Shown here one piece after another: positions 531 to 7,512 of a stretch of DNA of 7,512 nt. The stretch is from a bacterium (lineage in GTDB: Bacteria > JACRDZ01 > JAJRWM01): positions 1-7,512 of the forward strand of contig JAJRWM010000063.1 of assembly GCA_024276815.1 (NCBI GenBank), given 5' to 3'. Position numbers and translations under genes: made by a program. Position 1 is the first letter of the stretch. Every line of letters begins with the position of its first letter. The notes beneath the pieces are model-generated. The model was not told the origin of the DNA and searched no databases. It worked only from the letters and a program-made list of their open reading frames with translations.

Positions 531-1856
531 ATGAGTAATTACGCCTATTTCTGGGGCTGTCAAATCCCCTTCCGCTTCGCCTTTATGGAAAAATCCACCC
601 GGCTCGTACTGCCCCTGCTGGGCATTCACGCACAAGACCTGGACGGACTGACCTGCTGCCCGGAAAAATCACTGATCAAAACCATGGATAAATTCACCTG
701 GTATCTAACCGCCGCCCGCAACCTGGCCCTGGCGGAAAAAGCCGGTCGCGACTTTTTGGTTATTTGCAACGGTTGCTCCAGTTCCCTTAAATCAGCGGCC
801 AAGGATATCAAGTGGAATATCCAGTTGCAGGAACAAATAAACCAACGGCTGGCCAGGGTCGGTCTCGAATACAAGGGAACCGCCAAGGTCAAACATATCA
901 TCGAAGCGCTGGCCGATGAGGTGACGCCGGCCGTTATCCGCAAGAAAGTGGTCAAACCGCTGCACGGAATGCGGATTGGTGTCCATTACGGCTGCCACAT
1001 GATGCGTCCGAGCGACGCCGTCCTTTTCGACGATCCGCTCAATCCCCAGAAATACGATTCGCTTATCGAAGCTTTGGGCGCTAAAAGCCTGGACTACGCC
1101 AGCAAGCTGTTGTGCTGTGGTAACGCTTTCAACGTCTCGGATGTCGCGGACGCCTCCGTGTTGTCGGTTCGCAAAAAACTGAGTGAACTGACGGAATTAA
1201 AAGCCGACGCGCTCAGCGTGACCTGTCCGGCCTGTTTCATGCAATATGACGGCAAACAGTACATCATGCAGAGAAGCGGTGAGAAACTGGACATTCCCGT
1301 GCTCACCTTGATTGAGTTAATGGGCCTGGCTTTCGGTCTCTCGCCGGAGGAGTTGGGAATCGGGAATCACCGGGTCAAGCCGGACAGCTTTTTCAGCAAG
1401 TGGGATGACCGGCTACAGGAATTGGTTAAACTTGAAAAAACTCTTGATCTGAAAATGCTTCAGGATTGCTACAACTGCGGAGCCTGTATGTATGATTGTC
1501 CCTCCGCTCAGGTTTGCGACGATTTCAACCCCCGGCAAATTGTCGGACGCCTGCTGACCGGCGAAATTGACGGGTTGATCAACGATCCGAAAATCTGGGA
1601 ATGTCTCGAATGCCATACCTGCTCCGAGATGTGCCCGCAGGGATTTGGCATGGAAAAGGTCTTCACCCTCCTCAAGCATCTGGCTGTGCAAAGAGGGGTT
1701 ATGCCGTCCCCGACCCGGGCCGGAATCGATATCTTTAAAAAGACCGGCCGTTTGGGGGAACCAAGTAAGGCGAGTCGCAAAAAACTGGGCTTGGGTGAGT
1801 TTCCGTCTTCCGGCCAGGAAGAGTTGGAAAAACTACTAAAAGATACTGATAAATAA
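531..1856 (+). CDS. Heterodisulfide reductase-like HdrB-HdrC fusion protein
   Basis: This is a 441-residue soluble iron-sulfur protein. The N-terminal half (about 1-270) is HdrB-like, with two complete cysteine-rich CCG motifs: C10, C42-C43, C79, C82, and C155, C195-C196, C232, C235. In known HdrB each such set holds a non-cubane [4Fe-4S] cluster that acts on disulfides. The C-terminal part (about 290-400) is HdrC-like, with two CxxCxxCxxxCP motifs (C313/316/319/323 and C358/361/364/368) for two cubane [4Fe-4S] clusters that wire electrons to the first half. No signal peptide or membrane segment is visible. The start is supported by AGGAG at 518-522, 8 nt before the ATG. The domain order B then C is opposite to HdrD, DsrK and GlpC-type proteins, where the ferredoxin-like part comes first. 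No HdrA flavin subunit is seen here. It is the first gene of the operon, 53 nt before the amidotransferase. Likely roles are electron transfer with a thiol/disulfide partner or ferredoxin. The substrate is unknown, and methanogen CoM/CoB chemistry should not be assumed. Confidence 0.88.
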   Translation: MSNYAYFWGCQIPFRFAFMEKSTRLVLPLLGIHAQDLDGLTCCPEKSLIKTMDKFTWYLTAARNLALAEKAGRDFLVICNGCSSSLKSAAKDIKWNIQLQEQINQRLARVGLEYKGTAKVKHIIEALADEVTPAVIRKKVVKPLHGMRIGVHYGCHMMRPSDAVLFDDPLNPQKYDSLIEALGAKSLDYASKLLCCGNAFNVSDVADASVLSVRKKLSELTELKADALSVTCPACFMQYDGKQYIMQRSGEKLDIPVLTLIELMGLAFGLSPEELGIGNHRVKPDSFFSKWDDRLQELVKLEKTLDLKMLQDCYNCGACMYDCPSAQVCDDFNPRQIVGRLLTGEIDGLINDPKIWECLECHTCSEMCPQGFGMEKVFTLLKHLAVQRGVMPSPTRAGIDIFKKTGRLGEPSKASRKKLGLGEFPSSGQEELEKLLKDTDK

Positions 1857-1909
1857 TAGCTGAAAATTGCTCTGATTTTGAACGATAGAACTTTTAAGGG
1901 GTAAGGTAT

Positions 1910-3004
1910 ATGAGTTGGCGTTATGAGAAGGATATTTCCGGCTGCGGTCTCGCCGGGATCATCAATACCAGGCGCGAGTTGATTAATGGTAAGGTCATCA
2001 TGAAATCAATCGCTTTGCAGCATGACCGCGGTAATGGTCTGGGGGGCGGGTTCGCCGCCTACGGGATTTATCCGGACTATAAGGACCACTACGCTTTTCA
2101 TGTCATGTTTGAACATGAAAAGTGCCGTCACGAGTTTGAGCATTATCTTAAAATAAATTACCAGATTGACCGGGAAGAATTGATTCCGACCCGCACCCAC
2201 CCGAAGGTGCCCACCCATCCGATACTGTGGCGTTACTTCGTCACGATCAAACCGGATCGTCCTGATTTAAAAGAAGATGAAATCGGGGACCAGGATTTTA
2301 TCGTTAAAACCGTTATGCACGTCAATCTCAATATTGACGGCGCCTACGTCTTCTCCTCGGGCAAAAACATGGGCGTTTTTAAAGGCGTGGGCTATCCTGA
2401 GGATATTGGCGAGTTTTTCTGCCTGGAGAACTACGACGCCTATATCTGGACCGCGCACAACCGTTTCCCGACCAACACTCCCGGCTGGTGGGGCGGCGCT
2501 CATCCTTTTGCCCTGCTGGAATGGACCATCGTTCATAACGGGGAAATATCCTCTTACGGGATTAACAAGCGTTACCTGGAGATGTTCCATTACACTTGCA
2601 GCCTGATGACTGACACGGAAGTCGTGGCCTATCTGCTGGACCTGCTATTGCGCAAGCACAACCTGCCGAGAGAACTGGCGTTGAAAGCCCTGTCGGCTTC
2701 TTTCTGGAAAGATATAGATAAAATGGACAAAAGAGAAAGAACCATGTTTACCGCGATCCGCCAGGTTTACGGCAGCGCGGCTCTTAACGGACCGTTCGCG
2801 ATCCTGATCGGCCATAACAACGGCCTGATCGGGATTAACGACCGTATCAAGCTGAGGCCGCTGGTCGCCGCGCGCAAGCAAGACACTTATTACCTGGCTT
2901 CGGAGGAGTCGTCGATTCGCGAGGTTTGTCCTGAGCCGGAACGTATTTGGCATCCGAAAGCCGGCGAACCGGTAATTATTGACTTGGAAAAGGAGGTTAA
3001 GTAA
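1910..3004 (+). CDS. Glutamate synthase glutamine amidotransferase subunit (class II, split type)
   Basis: This 364-residue protein is the glutaminase part of a split, archaeal-type glutamate synthase. It would hydrolyse glutamine and pass ammonia to the FMN subunit. Class II (Ntn) signatures are present: the CGLAGI nucleophile motif at C12, RFPTN at 185-189, HNGEI at 209-213 and TDTE at 234-237. The nucleophile in this family must be the N-terminal residue, so the first 11 residues are probably a propeptide removed by self-cleavage. The ATG is preceded by AAGGGG (1896-1901) with 8 nt spacing, and no ATG lies closer to C12. The stop codon directly abuts the ATG of the next gene, and the last codons carry that gene's ribosome site. 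PurF, GlmS and asparagine synthetase share the fold, but they carry further domains absent here, and the two neighbours are the remaining synthase parts. N-methylglutamate synthase subunit A is a related alternative. Confidence 0.9.
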   Translation: MSWRYEKDISGCGLAGIINTRRELINGKVIMKSIALQHDRGNGLGGGFAAYGIYPDYKDHYAFHVMFEHEKCRHEFEHYLKINYQIDREELIPTRTHPKVPTHPILWRYFVTIKPDRPDLKEDEIGDQDFIVKTVMHVNLNIDGAYVFSSGKNMGVFKGVGYPEDIGEFFCLENYDAYIWTAHNRFPTNTPGWWGGAHPFALLEWTIVHNGEISSYGINKRYLEMFHYTCSLMTDTEVVAYLLDLLLRKHNLPRELALKALSASFWKDIDKMDKRERTMFTAIRQVYGSAALNGPFAILIGHNNGLIGINDRIKLRPLVAARKQDTYYLASEESSIREVCPEPERIWHPKAGEPVIIDLEKEVK

Positions 3005-4513
3005 ATGGTGAAGAGTACGATCCCTCCCATGTTTCAGGTTGTTGTGGATAAAGAAAAATGCCGCAAGTGCAAACGCTGTGTCATGAGTTGCAGTTATGGA
3101 GCTCTTGGTTTTACTGACCGGGTGGTGCCTGATGACAAGAACTGCGTCGCCTGTCATCGCTGTGTCGCCATGTGTCCGGAAAACGCGATCATGATCAATG
3201 AATCGCCGTTGGCTTACCGGCCTCATGCCAGTTGGACCGTCGAACATCGTCAGGGTATTTTAAAACAGGCGGAGACCGGCGGTATGCTGCTGACCGGGAT
3301 GGGCAACGACAAGCCCTATAAAATATTTTGGGACCATCTGGTGATTGACGCCTGCCAGGTCACCAACCCTTCCATTGATCCGTTGCGCGAGCCAATGGAA
3401 CTTCGTACTTATCTGGGTAGCAAACCGGACAAGCTGGAATTTGAAACGGACAAAAATGGTCAGCCCTCGCTTAAAACTCAACTGACGCCCAATATCCTGC
3501 TGGAAACCCCGATTGTTTTCGCGGCCATGTCCTTTGGTTCGATCAGTCTTAACGCTCATCGGGCCTTGGCTCGCGCCGCTTATGAAAGCGGTATTTTAAT
3601 GAACACCGGCGAAGGCGGTCTTCACAAGGATCTATATAAATACGGCGAACGGGCGATTGTCCAGGTCGCTTCGGGACGTTTTGGCGTCCATCAGGAGTAT
3701 CTGAACCAGGGCTCGGTCATCGAGATCAAGGTCGGCCAGGGCGCCAAGCCCGGCATCGGCGGGCACTTGCCGGGCGAGAAAATAAACAGCGAAGTTTCTC
3801 AAACCCGCATGATCCCTATTGGTTCGGACGCTTTAAGCCCGGCGCCCCATCATGATATTTACTCGATTGAGGATTTGCGTCAATTGATTTACGCCCTGAA
3901 AGAAGCCACCAATTATCAAAAACCGGTCTCGGTAAAGGTCAGCGCGGTTCATAATATCGCGGCCATCGCTTCCGGTATTGTCAGGGCCGGGGCCGATATT
4001 GTCACCATCGACGGTTTCCGGGGCGGTACGGGGGCGGCGCCCACGATTATTCGGGACAATGTCGGCATACCCATTGAGATGGCCCTGGCCGCCGTGGATG
4101 ACCGGCTGCGTAAAGAGGGTATCCGCAACCAGGCGTCTATCATAGCCGCCGGCAGTATCCGCAGCAGCGGTGACTGGGTAAAGGCGCTGGCCTTGGGCGC
4201 TGACGCCGTGGTGATCGGAACCGCGGCTTTAATCGCCATGGGCTGCCGGGTCTGCCAGAAATGCTACATGGGCAAGTGCACCTGGGGTATCGCGACCCAG
4301 AATCCGCAACTGACCGCCCGGCTGAACCCGGAAGTCGCCACGGAGAGACTTAAGAATCTGATTCGGGCCTGGAGCCTGGAATTAAAAGAAATATTAGGGC
4401 TTTTAGGCGTGAACTCCATTGAGAGTTTGCGGGGGAATCGGGAACGGCTGCGGGCGATTGGCCTGACCGATTCGGAGGCCAATATACTAGGAGTGAAACA
4501 TGCCGGCGAGTAA
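3005..4513 (+). CDS. gltB: Glutamate synthase FMN core with N-terminal 2x[4Fe-4S] ferredoxin domain
   Basis: This 502-residue protein is the synthase core. It converts 2-oxoglutarate plus ammonia to glutamate using FMN. Residues 15-60 form a bacterial ferredoxin domain with two CxxCxxCxxxC motifs (C19/22/25/29 and C47/50/53/57). The rest is the FMN-binding barrel, with MSFGS near 175, the QGAKPG..GG..PG segment near 246-258 and DGFRGGTGAAP at 336-346. The C-terminal cysteines C414, C420 and C425 give the CX5CX4C spacing that holds the [3Fe-4S] cluster of GltB, and there is an extra Cys at 417. The ATG follows the previous stop with no gap. A near-ideal AAAAGGAGG (2989-2996) sits inside the preceding gene, 8 nt upstream, so translation is probably coupled. 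The fused ferredoxin domain replaces the usual direct link to GltD and suggests electrons arrive from ferredoxin or another Fe-S protein. It is about one third of a canonical GltB because the amidotransferase and GXGXG parts are separate genes. Confidence 0.92.
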   Translation: MVKSTIPPMFQVVVDKEKCRKCKRCVMSCSYGALGFTDRVVPDDKNCVACHRCVAMCPENAIMINESPLAYRPHASWTVEHRQGILKQAETGGMLLTGMGNDKPYKIFWDHLVIDACQVTNPSIDPLREPMELRTYLGSKPDKLEFETDKNGQPSLKTQLTPNILLETPIVFAAMSFGSISLNAHRALARAAYESGILMNTGEGGLHKDLYKYGERAIVQVASGRFGVHQEYLNQGSVIEIKVGQGAKPGIGGHLPGEKINSEVSQTRMIPIGSDALSPAPHHDIYSIEDLRQLIYALKEATNYQKPVSVKVSAVHNIAAIASGIVRAGADIVTIDGFRGGTGAAPTIIRDNVGIPIEMALAAVDDRLRKEGIRNQASIIAAGSIRSSGDWVKALALGADAVVIGTAALIAMGCRVCQKCYMGKCTWGIATQNPQLTARLNPEVATERLKNLIRAWSLELKEILGLLGVNSIESLRGNRERLRAIGLTDSEANILGVKHAGE

Positions 4514-5276
4514 AACGAAAAAAACTGGGAAAACCATAACTATTGACGCTAAAGGCGTTTATTATCGTGAGTTGAATCATTCAATCCGTACCGCGTTGAA
4601 GGCCGGCGGCAAGGAATTTCACCTGAAGAACATTAACGGTCAGCGCTATATTGGCGACGGGCTGGTTGGCAGGGATGTCAGGATAACCATTGACGGCGTG
4701 CCGGGCAACGATCTGGGCGCGTTTATGGACGGTCCGACGATTGTCGTTAACAGCAACGCCCAGGACGGGATATCCAATACCATGAACGACGGTAAAATCA
4801 TTATTCACGGCGATGCCGGCGATGTTTTGGGTTACGGTATGCGGGGGGGGAAGCTTTTTGTCAGGGGTGACGTCGGTTATCGGGTCGGTATTCACATGAA
4901 AGAGTTTAAGGCTAAAATACCGGTGATTATCGCCGGCGGCGTCGCTGGCGATTTTCTGGGTGAATACATGGCTGGCGGTATTCTGATCCTGTTGGGCGAG
5001 AAGAAGAAGAACGAGATGATGGTAGGCGATTATCTGGGCACCGGTATGCACGGCGGCGTTATTTATCTGAAATATTCCGACGATATCAAAGAAGATCGTC
5101 TGGGCAAGGAAGTCGCGGTGATGGAACTGGATGACGCTGACAATAAAGTTCTGGATAAACTGCTCAAAGAATATTGTCAGGATTTCAGAATGGATTATGA
5201 TAAAACCCGCCAGCAGCGATTCGTCAAACTCAAACCGGTATCCCACCGTCCCTACGGCAAGCTTTACGCCTACTGA
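4500..5276 (+). CDS. Glutamate synthase GXGXG-domain subunit
   Basis: This 258-residue protein corresponds to the C-terminal GXGXG domain of the large glutamate synthase chain. Repeated turns with Gly-x-x-x-Gly spacing (GNDLG, GDVLGYGM, GYRVG, GDFLGEYM, GDYLGTGM) run from about residue 60 to 195 and would form a right-handed beta-helix. In GltB this domain has no catalytic residues; it bridges and orients the amidotransferase and FMN domains. After the helix comes a roughly 60-residue acidic then basic tail ending in GKLYAY. The ATG lies inside the previous gene (14-nt overlap, different frame) and is preceded by AGGAG at 4489-4493, 6 nt upstream, so translational coupling is likely. FwdC and MgsB share the fold, but the adjacency to the amidotransferase and FMN core fixes the assignment. 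It is the last gene of the operon. Confidence 0.9.
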   Translation: MPASKTKKTGKTITIDAKGVYYRELNHSIRTALKAGGKEFHLKNINGQRYIGDGLVGRDVRITIDGVPGNDLGAFMDGPTIVVNSNAQDGISNTMNDGKIIIHGDAGDVLGYGMRGGKLFVRGDVGYRVGIHMKEFKAKIPVIIAGGVAGDFLGEYMAGGILILLGEKKKNEMMVGDYLGTGMHGGVIYLKYSDDIKEDRLGKEVAVMELDDADNKVLDKLLKEYCQDFRMDYDKTRQQRFVKLKPVSHRPYGKLYAY

Positions 5277-5564: not shown

Positions 5565-6410
5565 ATGTGGGATTATACCGAAAAAGTAAAGGAACACTTT
5601 CTTAATCCTCGGAATGTTGGCGAAATCGAGCAACCGGACGCGGTCGCCGAGGTCGGCAATATTACCTGCGGCGACGCCTTGAAGCTTACTTTGAGAATCA
5701 ACCGGGAATCCGGGAAAATAGAAGACGCCAAGTTCAGGACCTTCGGCTGCGGCAGCGCGATCGCTTCCTCTTCCGCTCTGACGGAATTGATTATCGGCAA
5801 AACAATTGAGGAGGCCTCAAAGGTCACCAACAAGGAGATCGCCGACTACCTGGGGGGGTTACCCAAAGAGAAGATGCACTGCTCGGTGATGGGTATGGAG
5901 GCGCTGGAAGCGGCGCTCGCTGATTACCGCGGGGAAACGCTGCCCGAAGAACACATGGATGAGGGTGAAATCGTTTGTAAGTGCTTTGGCGTGACCGATA
6001 CCAAGATCCGCCGGGTTATCAGGGAAAACCATCTCAGTACAGTTGAAGAGGTAACCAATTACTGTAAAGCCGGCGGCGGTTGCGGCGGCTGTATCCCTGA
6101 TATCGAGGCGATTCTGGCCGAGGAAGGCGTTCAGCCGACCGAGAAAAAAGCGGTAAAGCCTAAAAAACTAACCAATATCCAGAAGATGCTGCTGGTGCAG
6201 GAAACCATTGAAAGGGAAATCAGGCCCTTGCTGCAAGCCGACGGCGGGGATATTGAACTGATCGATATTGAAGGTAACGAGGTTTTGGTCAGTTTGCGGG
6301 GCATGTGCGCGGAATGTCCCAGCGCGACCTTCACGCTTGACGGCGCCGTGGGCAGAAAGCTGAGGGAATTCGTCTCCCCGGATCTGGTCGTGAGAGAGGT
6401 GAAGTCATGA
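5565..6410 (+). CDS. nifU: NifU, three-domain iron-sulfur cluster scaffold
   Basis: NifU takes sulfur from NifS and iron, builds [2Fe-2S]/[4Fe-4S] clusters and delivers them to apo-proteins in the cytoplasm. All three domains are present in 281 residues. The IscU-like scaffold (1-123) has C35 (ITCGD), C62 (FGCGSAIASSS) and C106 (MHCSVMG). The central BFD-type ferredoxin domain has C138, C140, C173 and C176 for a permanent [2Fe-2S]. The Nfu domain (about 205-281) has the C248-x-x-C251 pair that holds a transient [4Fe-4S]. Scaffold cysteine positions equal those I recall for Azotobacter NifU (35, 62, 106); the whole protein is about 30 residues shorter, mostly in linkers. AGGAG at 5553-5557 supports the start. 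Three-domain NifU occurs in nitrogen fixers but is also the housekeeping system in many anaerobes and epsilonproteobacteria, so it does not by itself imply nitrogen fixation. Confidence 0.96.
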   Translation: MWDYTEKVKEHFLNPRNVGEIEQPDAVAEVGNITCGDALKLTLRINRESGKIEDAKFRTFGCGSAIASSSALTELIIGKTIEEASKVTNKEIADYLGGLPKEKMHCSVMGMEALEAALADYRGETLPEEHMDEGEIVCKCFGVTDTKIRRVIRENHLSTVEEVTNYCKAGGGCGGCIPDIEAILAEEGVQPTEKKAVKPKKLTNIQKMLLVQETIEREIRPLLQADGGDIELIDIEGNEVLVSLRGMCAECPSATFTLDGAVGRKLREFVSPDLVVREVKS

Positions 6411-7512
6411 ACACAGTCTACGTGGACAATAACGCGACTACCGCGGTCGCTCCCGAAGTATTCGAAAAGATGAGGCCGTTTCTGACAGACCTGTATGGCA
6501 ATCCTTCCAGCATGCATACTTTCGGCGGTCAGGTGGCCAAACACCTTGAGCGCGCCCGGGAAAACATTGCCGCCTTGATCGGCGCCGGGCCGGAGGAAAT
6601 TATCTTTACCAGTTGCGGCACCGAAAGCGATAATACCGCCATCTTCAGCACGCTGGACTGTTATCCTTTGAAAAAGCATATTATCACGACCAGGGTGGAG
6701 CATCCGGCTGTTCTAAACACCTGTAAGAACCTGACCAAGAAAGGCTACCGGGTATCCTTCCTGCCGGTGGACAAAAAGGGGCGGCTTGATCCGGATGACC
6801 TGAAAAACGCCCTGGACGAGGACACCGCTTTAGTCTCTATCATGTACGCCAACAATGAAACGGGAGTTATCTTTCCCATCGAGAAGATCGCCCGGATAGT
6901 CAAGGATAGAGGCGCGATATTTCATTGTGACGCGGTTCAGGCGGTGGGCAAAATCCCTCTGGACATGAAAGATAGCGCTATTGACTTACTGGCTCTTTCC
7001 GGGCATAAGTTGCACGCTCCCAAGGGAGTTGGCGTGTTGTACGTTCGTAAAGGCACCAAGTTCAAGCCTTTTATCAAAGGTGGGCATCAGGAGCGGGGAC
7101 GACGGGGAGGGACGGAAAATGTCGCCTCGATTGTCGGCTTGGGAGAAGCGGCCCGGTTAGCGGCCAGCCATTTAGAGGAAGAAAACACCAGGGTTAAGGC
7201 TCTGCGTGATAAGTTGCAAGCTGGTATTATCGCCAACACCAAGGATGTCCAGGTTAACGGGGATACGGAAAACCGACTGCCTAACACCCTGAATATTGGC
7301 CTTGAATATATAGAGGGCGAGGCGATCCTTTTATTATTGAACGAGTTGAACATCGCCGCCTCCTCCTGGTCGGCCTGCACTTCCGGGTCATTGGAACCAT
7401 CCCATGTCCTGCGGGCCATGGGAGTGCCGTTCACCTCAGTTCACGGCTCGGTTCGCTTCAGTCTGAGTCGGTACAACACGGAGGCGGAGATTGATTATAT
7501 TATCAAAGAGCT
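6407..7512 (+). CDS. nifS: NifS cysteine desulfurase (3' end beyond the window)
   Basis: This is a PLP-dependent cysteine desulfurase that removes sulfur from L-cysteine and passes it as persulfide to NifU. The 368 codons present are about nine tenths of a typical 400-residue NifS, and the frame is open to the right edge. Its start overlaps the nifU stop (ATGA at 6407-6410), with GAGG at 6394-6397 as ribosome site, so the two are coupled. Visible landmarks are YVDNNATT at the start, TSCGTESDN in the cofactor-binding region, VEHPAVLNT with the histidine that stacks on PLP, HCDAVQAVGK, and SGHKLHAPKG with the PLP lysine K201. The catalytic cysteine is C324 in SACTSG, followed by SLEPSHVLRAM, the NifS/IscS class I type. 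The residue two before the SAC motif's alanine is Trp (SSWSAC), where I recall Gly in this family. Confidence 0.96.
   Translation, partial: MNTVYVDNNATTAVAPEVFEKMRPFLTDLYGNPSSMHTFGGQVAKHLERARENIAALIGAGPEEIIFTSCGTESDNTAIFSTLDCYPLKKHIITTRVEHPAVLNTCKNLTKKGYRVSFLPVDKKGRLDPDDLKNALDEDTALVSIMYANNETGVIFPIEKIARIVKDRGAIFHCDAVQAVGKIPLDMKDSAIDLLALSGHKLHAPKGVGVLYVRKGTKFKPFIKGGHQERGRRGGTENVASIVGLGEAARLAASHLEEENTRVKALRDKLQAGIIANTKDVQVNGDTENRLPNTLNIGLEYIEGEAILLLLNELNIAASSWSACTSGSLEPSHVLRAMGVPFTSVHGSVRFSLSRYNTEAEIDYIIKE

Follow-up and report, generated by a model that had tools for sequence, protein, structure and literature searches.

Glutamate synthase is a central point of nitrogen entry into metabolism, and its accepted electron donors are NAD(P)H, ferredoxin or F420. 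Contig JAJRWM010000063.1 of the bacterial assembly GCA_024276815.1 (GTDB lineage JACRDZ01; JAJRWM01) raises the question of how electrons reach a glutamate synthase that has a heterodisulfide reductase (Hdr)-like protein beside it and no GltD. The window analyzed here is the whole contig of 7,512 bp (G000:C228), so neighbouring genes past either end lie outside view; the genome is 91% complete and consists of 246 contigs. The original prediction had described an HdrB-HdrC fusion gene (hdrBC) followed on the same strand by a glutamate synthase split into three parts, and both its coordinates and its gene calls were found to be right. We propose, with a probability of roughly 60%, that this four-gene run codes for a glutamate synthase of the HdrBC type, whose dedicated electron input would be HdrBC instead of GltD, and that the donor in Firmicutes would be a dihydrolipoyl protein. 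All of the evidence is genomic, and from it we infer complex formation, the direction of electron flow and which donor serves each lineage.

An HdrB-HdrC fusion and a split glutamate synthase

To characterize the putative input module, the 441-aa product of hdrBC (positions 531-1856, forward strand, as are all genes of the window described here) was analyzed by domain and family searches, which revealed two CCG domains and an HdrC-type dicluster domain. The HdrB part (residues 1-290; 531-1400) was recognized from invariant columns and alignment to solved HdrB. Both of its CCG motifs are complete (C10, C42, C43, C79, C82 and C155, C195, C196, C232, C235) and are predicted to ligate a pair of noncubane [4Fe-4S] clusters. 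The HdrC part (residues 305-392; 1443-1706), delimited by domain searches and alignment, carries two CxxCxxCxxxC motifs for two [4Fe-4S] clusters. The motif cysteines of both parts are invariant among fused relatives and align with those of solved HdrB, and both HdrB motifs are intact in 44 of the 45 linked homologues, the remaining sequence being interrupted by N. An AlphaFold2 model of HdrBC (mean pLDDT 77) matched HdrB of 5odc and 8rwn, with a TM-score of 0.86 to 5odc_B by target length. The pair of CCG motifs in its HdrB part and the pair of [4Fe-4S] motifs in its HdrC part place the protein in the HdrBC type. It does not qualify as a CoB-CoM heterodisulfide reductase by the criteria applied, because it scored below the cut-off of TIGR03288 (CoB-CoM HdrB; 273.6 vs 345.15 bits) and a domain search found no hdrA in the window's cluster. 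The genome also holds a separate hdrC/hdrB/hdrA-type cluster.

The three genes that follow were assigned by domain searches, and for gltB2 by family searches as well. They encode a class II glutamine amidotransferase subunit (gltB1, 1910-3004), an FMN subunit (gltB2, 3005-4513) and a GXGXG beta-helix subunit (gltB3, 4500-5276), so that all parts of a split-type glutamate synthase are present. The catalytic cysteine of gltB1 is expected after a short propeptide (DISG/CGLAG), and the SGC motif is present in this amidotransferase. The gltB2 product combines the glutamate synthase FMN barrel with an N-terminal 2[4Fe-4S] ferredoxin domain (3038-3193; Pfam Fer4_7 and others), both motifs of which are also seen in linked homologues. 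The Fe-S ligands near FMN are intact (C-x5-C-x4-C with an extra Cys). In gltB2 and its homologues this cluster motif reads C-x2-C-x2-C-x4-C, compared with C-x5-C-x4-C in classical GltB, and the additional cysteine may mean that a [4Fe-4S] rather than a [3Fe-4S] cluster is bound. As the intergenic gaps along the run are only 53, 0 and -13 nt, hdrBC and the synthase genes likely form one operon. Long ORFs are absent from the 530 bp 5' of hdrBC.

The absence of gltD, noted for the window in the original prediction, was found to extend to the genome at its 91% completeness. A search of the genome gave a single Fer4_20 protein, which is NfnB-like and encoded beside an NfnA-type subunit; the sole GltD-like gene thus belongs to an NfnAB pair, as its NfnB half. 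Gene neighbourhood is needed to tell Nfn and GltD proteins apart (PMC5736913, where the subunit letters are swapped relative to the NfnA/NfnB usage here). A hidden gltD was rejected, since the Fer4_20 matches examined in this and related genomes were either NfnB with an NfnA neighbour or multidomain proteins of another kind. The NfnB gene itself (L028 502-1902, G000:C18) is interrupted by an in-frame TAG, which could be due to a pseudogene or a sequencing error. Close homologues of the FMN subunit occur once per genome and in the Hdr cluster, with two partial copies in G014.

Conservation of the Hdr-synthase association

To learn whether the adjacency extends beyond this genome, relatives were collected in two ways. 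A pattern scan with HdrBC peptides only returned 14 relatives in genomes of Peptococcaceae, Nitrospirota and 'Deltaproteobacteria', and an amidotransferase gene lies downstream of HdrBC in 13 of these, the 14th being cut by a contig end. Profile searches gave strong matches in 5/295 genomes of the Nitrospirota-centred phylum, 17/395 of the Deltaproteobacteria-centred and 16/398 of the Firmicutes-centred set, with sharp drops from the linked HdrB to the next matches (1e-250 to 1e-72, 1e-112 to 1e-84 and 1e-122 to 1e-80). In total, the linked type was found in 42 genomes of four lineages: the window's genome, 17 Firmicutes, five Nitrospirota and 19 Deltaproteobacteria. The window's genome is the only one of its phylum in which it is known, three others having been found to lack it.

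The synthase genes are adjacent to hdrBC or in the same neighbourhood in 41 of these 42 genomes, the last one being cut by a contig end, and none of 22 lower-scoring HdrB loci used as controls has synthase genes within 1.5 kb. Chance adjacency was therefore rejected, and the survey proposed in the original prediction thus revealed a link that is conserved well beyond the window's genome. The linked hdr genes are likewise not paired with hdrA in relatives. With no gltD found either, the three checks set by the original prediction all came out in its favour. The same gene set is kept despite several gene orders (hdrBC-gltB1-B2-B3; gltB3-lpd-...-hdrBC-gltB1-B2; gltB1-B2-B3-lpd-...-hdrBC; gltB1-B2-B3-hdrBC) and whether hdrB and hdrC are fused or, as in the Deltaproteobacteria genomes, separate genes. 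In a tree that was built quickly and in which some branches are long, linked HdrB proteins formed one side of a branch with an SH-aLRT support of 98, and the HdrB and synthase trees contained identical groups. These trees indicate that linked HdrB is a separate clade, apparently inherited in parallel with the synthase.

It remains an argument for HdrBC and the synthase being mere neighbours, with an unrelated role for HdrBC and a position due to chance or co-regulation, that adjacency alone never proves interaction, and in three genomes (G785, G746 and G820) several genes separate hdrBC from the synthase. One of them, G746, is a genome in a single contig of 2,401,520 bp with the lpd-hdrBC arrangement (L125, G746:C1), and its completeness in one piece suggests that it comes from a cultured isolate. 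Set against the contrast between linked and control loci, the spread over four lineages, the shuffled gene orders and the parallel trees, this explanation is very unlikely.

Other features of the window were considered as well. A nifU gene (NifU_N, BFD and NifU domains) followed by nifS starts 288 nt downstream of the synthase genes (5565-7510). Neither gene was seen beside the synthase in relatives' loci, and they were rejected as members of the system for this reason. In the 5' region lies an imperfect inverted repeat of 23 nt, together with a further, partial copy (115-168 and 255-276); it resembles a dispersed palindromic element. Rfam, promoter and terminator scans of the window gave nothing useful.

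Candidate donors and alternative explanations

The gene content of the Firmicutes clusters points to a donor. Dihydrolipoyl dehydrogenase (lpd) is encoded in the cluster in 16 of the 17 Firmicutes genomes and a lipoyl carrier in 12 of 17. In 11 genomes the carrier is an E2-type lipoyl domain (77-88 aa, T[SN]KA lysine motif) encoded directly before hdrBC, and in one (G919) it is a GcvH-type protein encoded directly after gltB1. Because two different carrier types occur, we suggest that the lipoyl group itself is what matters. Five clusters also contain lipA and four lipB, located between lpd and hdrBC, and the lpd, lipA and lipB genes tested exceed their NCBIfam cut-offs. Two genomes, G715 and G896, have their sole lipA match in the Hdr-synthase cluster and gave no GcvH match; in G005 GcvH was likewise not found, and lipA lies elsewhere in the genome. 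In these three and in G841, G921 and G726, the other strong Biotin_lipoyl match carries a biotin-type EAMKL motif; the weaker partial matches were read in part.

A related arrangement was observed in G365 (L190 4105-13136, G365:C5), where lpd-hdrC-hdrB-formate dehydrogenase is followed by gcvH, lipB and lipA, with no glutamate synthase nearby. The formate dehydrogenase consists of two open frames a short distance apart, which may reflect a selenocysteine codon. The locus apparently represents an HdrBC-lipoyl module reused with formate dehydrogenase. It suggests that HdrBC and lipoyl act as a converter that can be reused to connect NADH with Fe-S enzymes. We give an even chance to the broader idea of a class of dithiol-fed glutamate synthases in which HdrBC with a lipoyl carrier is a general plug-in connecting NADH, via Lpd, to Fe-S enzymes.

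In established Hdr chemistry, disulfides or dithiols react at the noncubane clusters of HdrB, and single electrons are handed on by HdrC. Accordingly, a protein-bound dithiol would be oxidized by the two noncubane clusters of HdrB, and electrons would pass through the two [4Fe-4S] clusters of HdrC to the N-terminal 2[4Fe-4S] domain of gltB2, their predicted entry point into the synthase. The cysteine-bound Fe-S cluster and FMN would follow, with glutamate formed from 2-oxoglutarate and glutamine-derived ammonia. In Firmicutes the dithiol would most likely be a dihydrolipoyl carrier protein re-reduced by NADH via dihydrolipoyl dehydrogenase, giving a path from NADH through Lpd, lipoyl, HdrB, HdrC and the ferredoxin domain to FMN. 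The potential of the dihydrolipoyl couple lies well below what glutamate synthase requires. For this reason, and because the couple, near -0.29 V (PMC6067878), is close to NADH, the path from NADH to FMN would be downhill overall. As there is no HdrA, flavin bifurcation of the HdrA type is not expected. A thiol/disulfide couple had been one of two options in the original prediction; the genes for Lpd, a lipoyl carrier, LipA and LipB in the Firmicutes clusters now lend it support that had not been foreseen, while we still infer the direction and path of the electrons.

Several observations weigh against a lipoyl donor throughout. One Firmicutes cluster (G839) lacks both lpd and a lipoyl carrier, and neither lpd nor lipoyl genes were found in the clusters of the window, Nitrospirota or Deltaproteobacteria. 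In addition, a gene for a YfhL-like 2[4Fe-4S] ferredoxin directly precedes hdrB in every Deltaproteobacteria locus that extends far enough upstream, though not in the loci of any other lineage. The donor may thus differ by lineage or be ferredoxin throughout, and it is mainly this ferredoxin gene that calls for caution. The loci with the ferredoxin gene are L012, L014-L017, L060-L062, L064-L076 and L127-L132, and in several of them an aldehyde dehydrogenase gene precedes it. The window's cluster has no lpd and carrier pair to qualify as a lipoyl-linked module, as those of Firmicutes do, and the sole PF00364 match in its genome was rejected as a lipoyl protein, being AccB-like. A search with the family's own profile found GcvH, and a LipA fragment is present at a contig edge, so that a lipoyl donor is possible in this organism. 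Lipoylated GcvH would be the best candidate, a donor not encoded on the contig.

The Deltaproteobacteria gene speaks for HdrBC being a ferredoxin adaptor: the small dicluster ferredoxin would reduce HdrC (or HdrB), from which electrons would reach the FMN subunit, and HdrB would have a thiol site that is vestigial or regulatory. Ferredoxin-dependent glutamate synthases do exist. However, the FMN subunit has a ferredoxin domain of its own, which would make an adaptor unneeded, the ligands of both noncubane clusters are kept in nearly all homologues, as described above, and Firmicutes clusters carry lipoyl genes rather than such a ferredoxin gene; we therefore consider the adaptor doubtful. Hdr chemistry is also reversible in principle, and lipoyl/Lpd systems track the NADH/NAD ratio, so HdrBC might drain electrons from the synthase to a disulfide, or sense the thiol state and switch the enzyme off. 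This is quite unlikely, as neither the window nor the clusters read showed a recognisable further gene for electron input, and a pure regulator would leave the synthase without a donor of its own except free ferredoxin. A link to menaquinol, as made by SdhE- or GlcF-type CCG proteins, is suggested by a distant NCBIfam similarity of HdrBC to SdhE and by Foldseek similarity to LutA and EtfD. The best matches, however, are true HdrB and HdrC from soluble complexes, the clusters showed no gene for a membrane subunit, and menaquinol is a weak donor for the glutamate synthase step, which makes this link extremely improbable. Dedicated electron input through HdrBC, with a dihydrolipoyl protein as donor in Firmicutes, is therefore the reading we prefer.

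If true, a thiol-fed glutamate synthase in some anaerobic bacteria would add a further kind of donor and bring lipoic acid into nitrogen assimilation. It would also account for genomes whose only lipoyl synthase gene found lies in a glutamate synthase cluster.

Comparison with known systems

The original prediction knew of no described Hdr-linked glutamate synthase, and among open-licence PMC papers we found no earlier description of an Hdr-linked or lipoyl-linked one. The two terms are joined in name in the HdrL and type III HdrA 'Hdr/glutamate synthase' fusion proteins (PMC2702500, PMC12054007). These are HdrA-type proteins with a GltD-like NAD(P)H domain and not glutamate synthases.

With the NADPH-dependent glutamate synthase GltBD, the system shares the amidotransferase, FMN and GXGXG chemistry and an Fe-S chain into FMN. 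It differs in the division of GltB into three subunits, in the additional 2[4Fe-4S] domain of the FMN subunit and in having HdrBC instead of GltD. That synthase clusters accept different input modules is known from the FrhB-linked, F420-dependent glutamate synthase (PMC9012536). There too, the synthase subunits are clustered with an exchangeable oxidoreductase, which is an F420 protein in that system and HdrBC here, joined in Firmicutes by Lpd and lipoyl proteins.

The soluble HdrBC of methanogens (HdrABC-MvhAGD) has the same HdrB fold, both noncubane cluster motifs and the HdrC dicluster domain. In the window, however, HdrB and HdrC are fused, HdrA is absent from the cluster, the partner is glutamate synthase, and the protein falls below the NCBIfam cut-off for CoB-CoM HdrB. 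Similar in its chemistry is the Hdr-like sulfur-oxidizing system (sHdr), for which the lipoate-binding protein LbpA is essential (PMC6067878). It combines noncubane clusters of the HdrB type with a lipoyl protein, as proposed here for Firmicutes, and Lpd has been proposed as the link to NAD. No sulfur-oxidation genes (the sHdr set with lbpA) were seen in the window or in the gene content of the clusters. In contrast to sHdr, the carriers here are E2-type lipoyl domains, apart from the one GcvH-type protein, with genes for LipA and LipB in some clusters, and the output would be glutamate.

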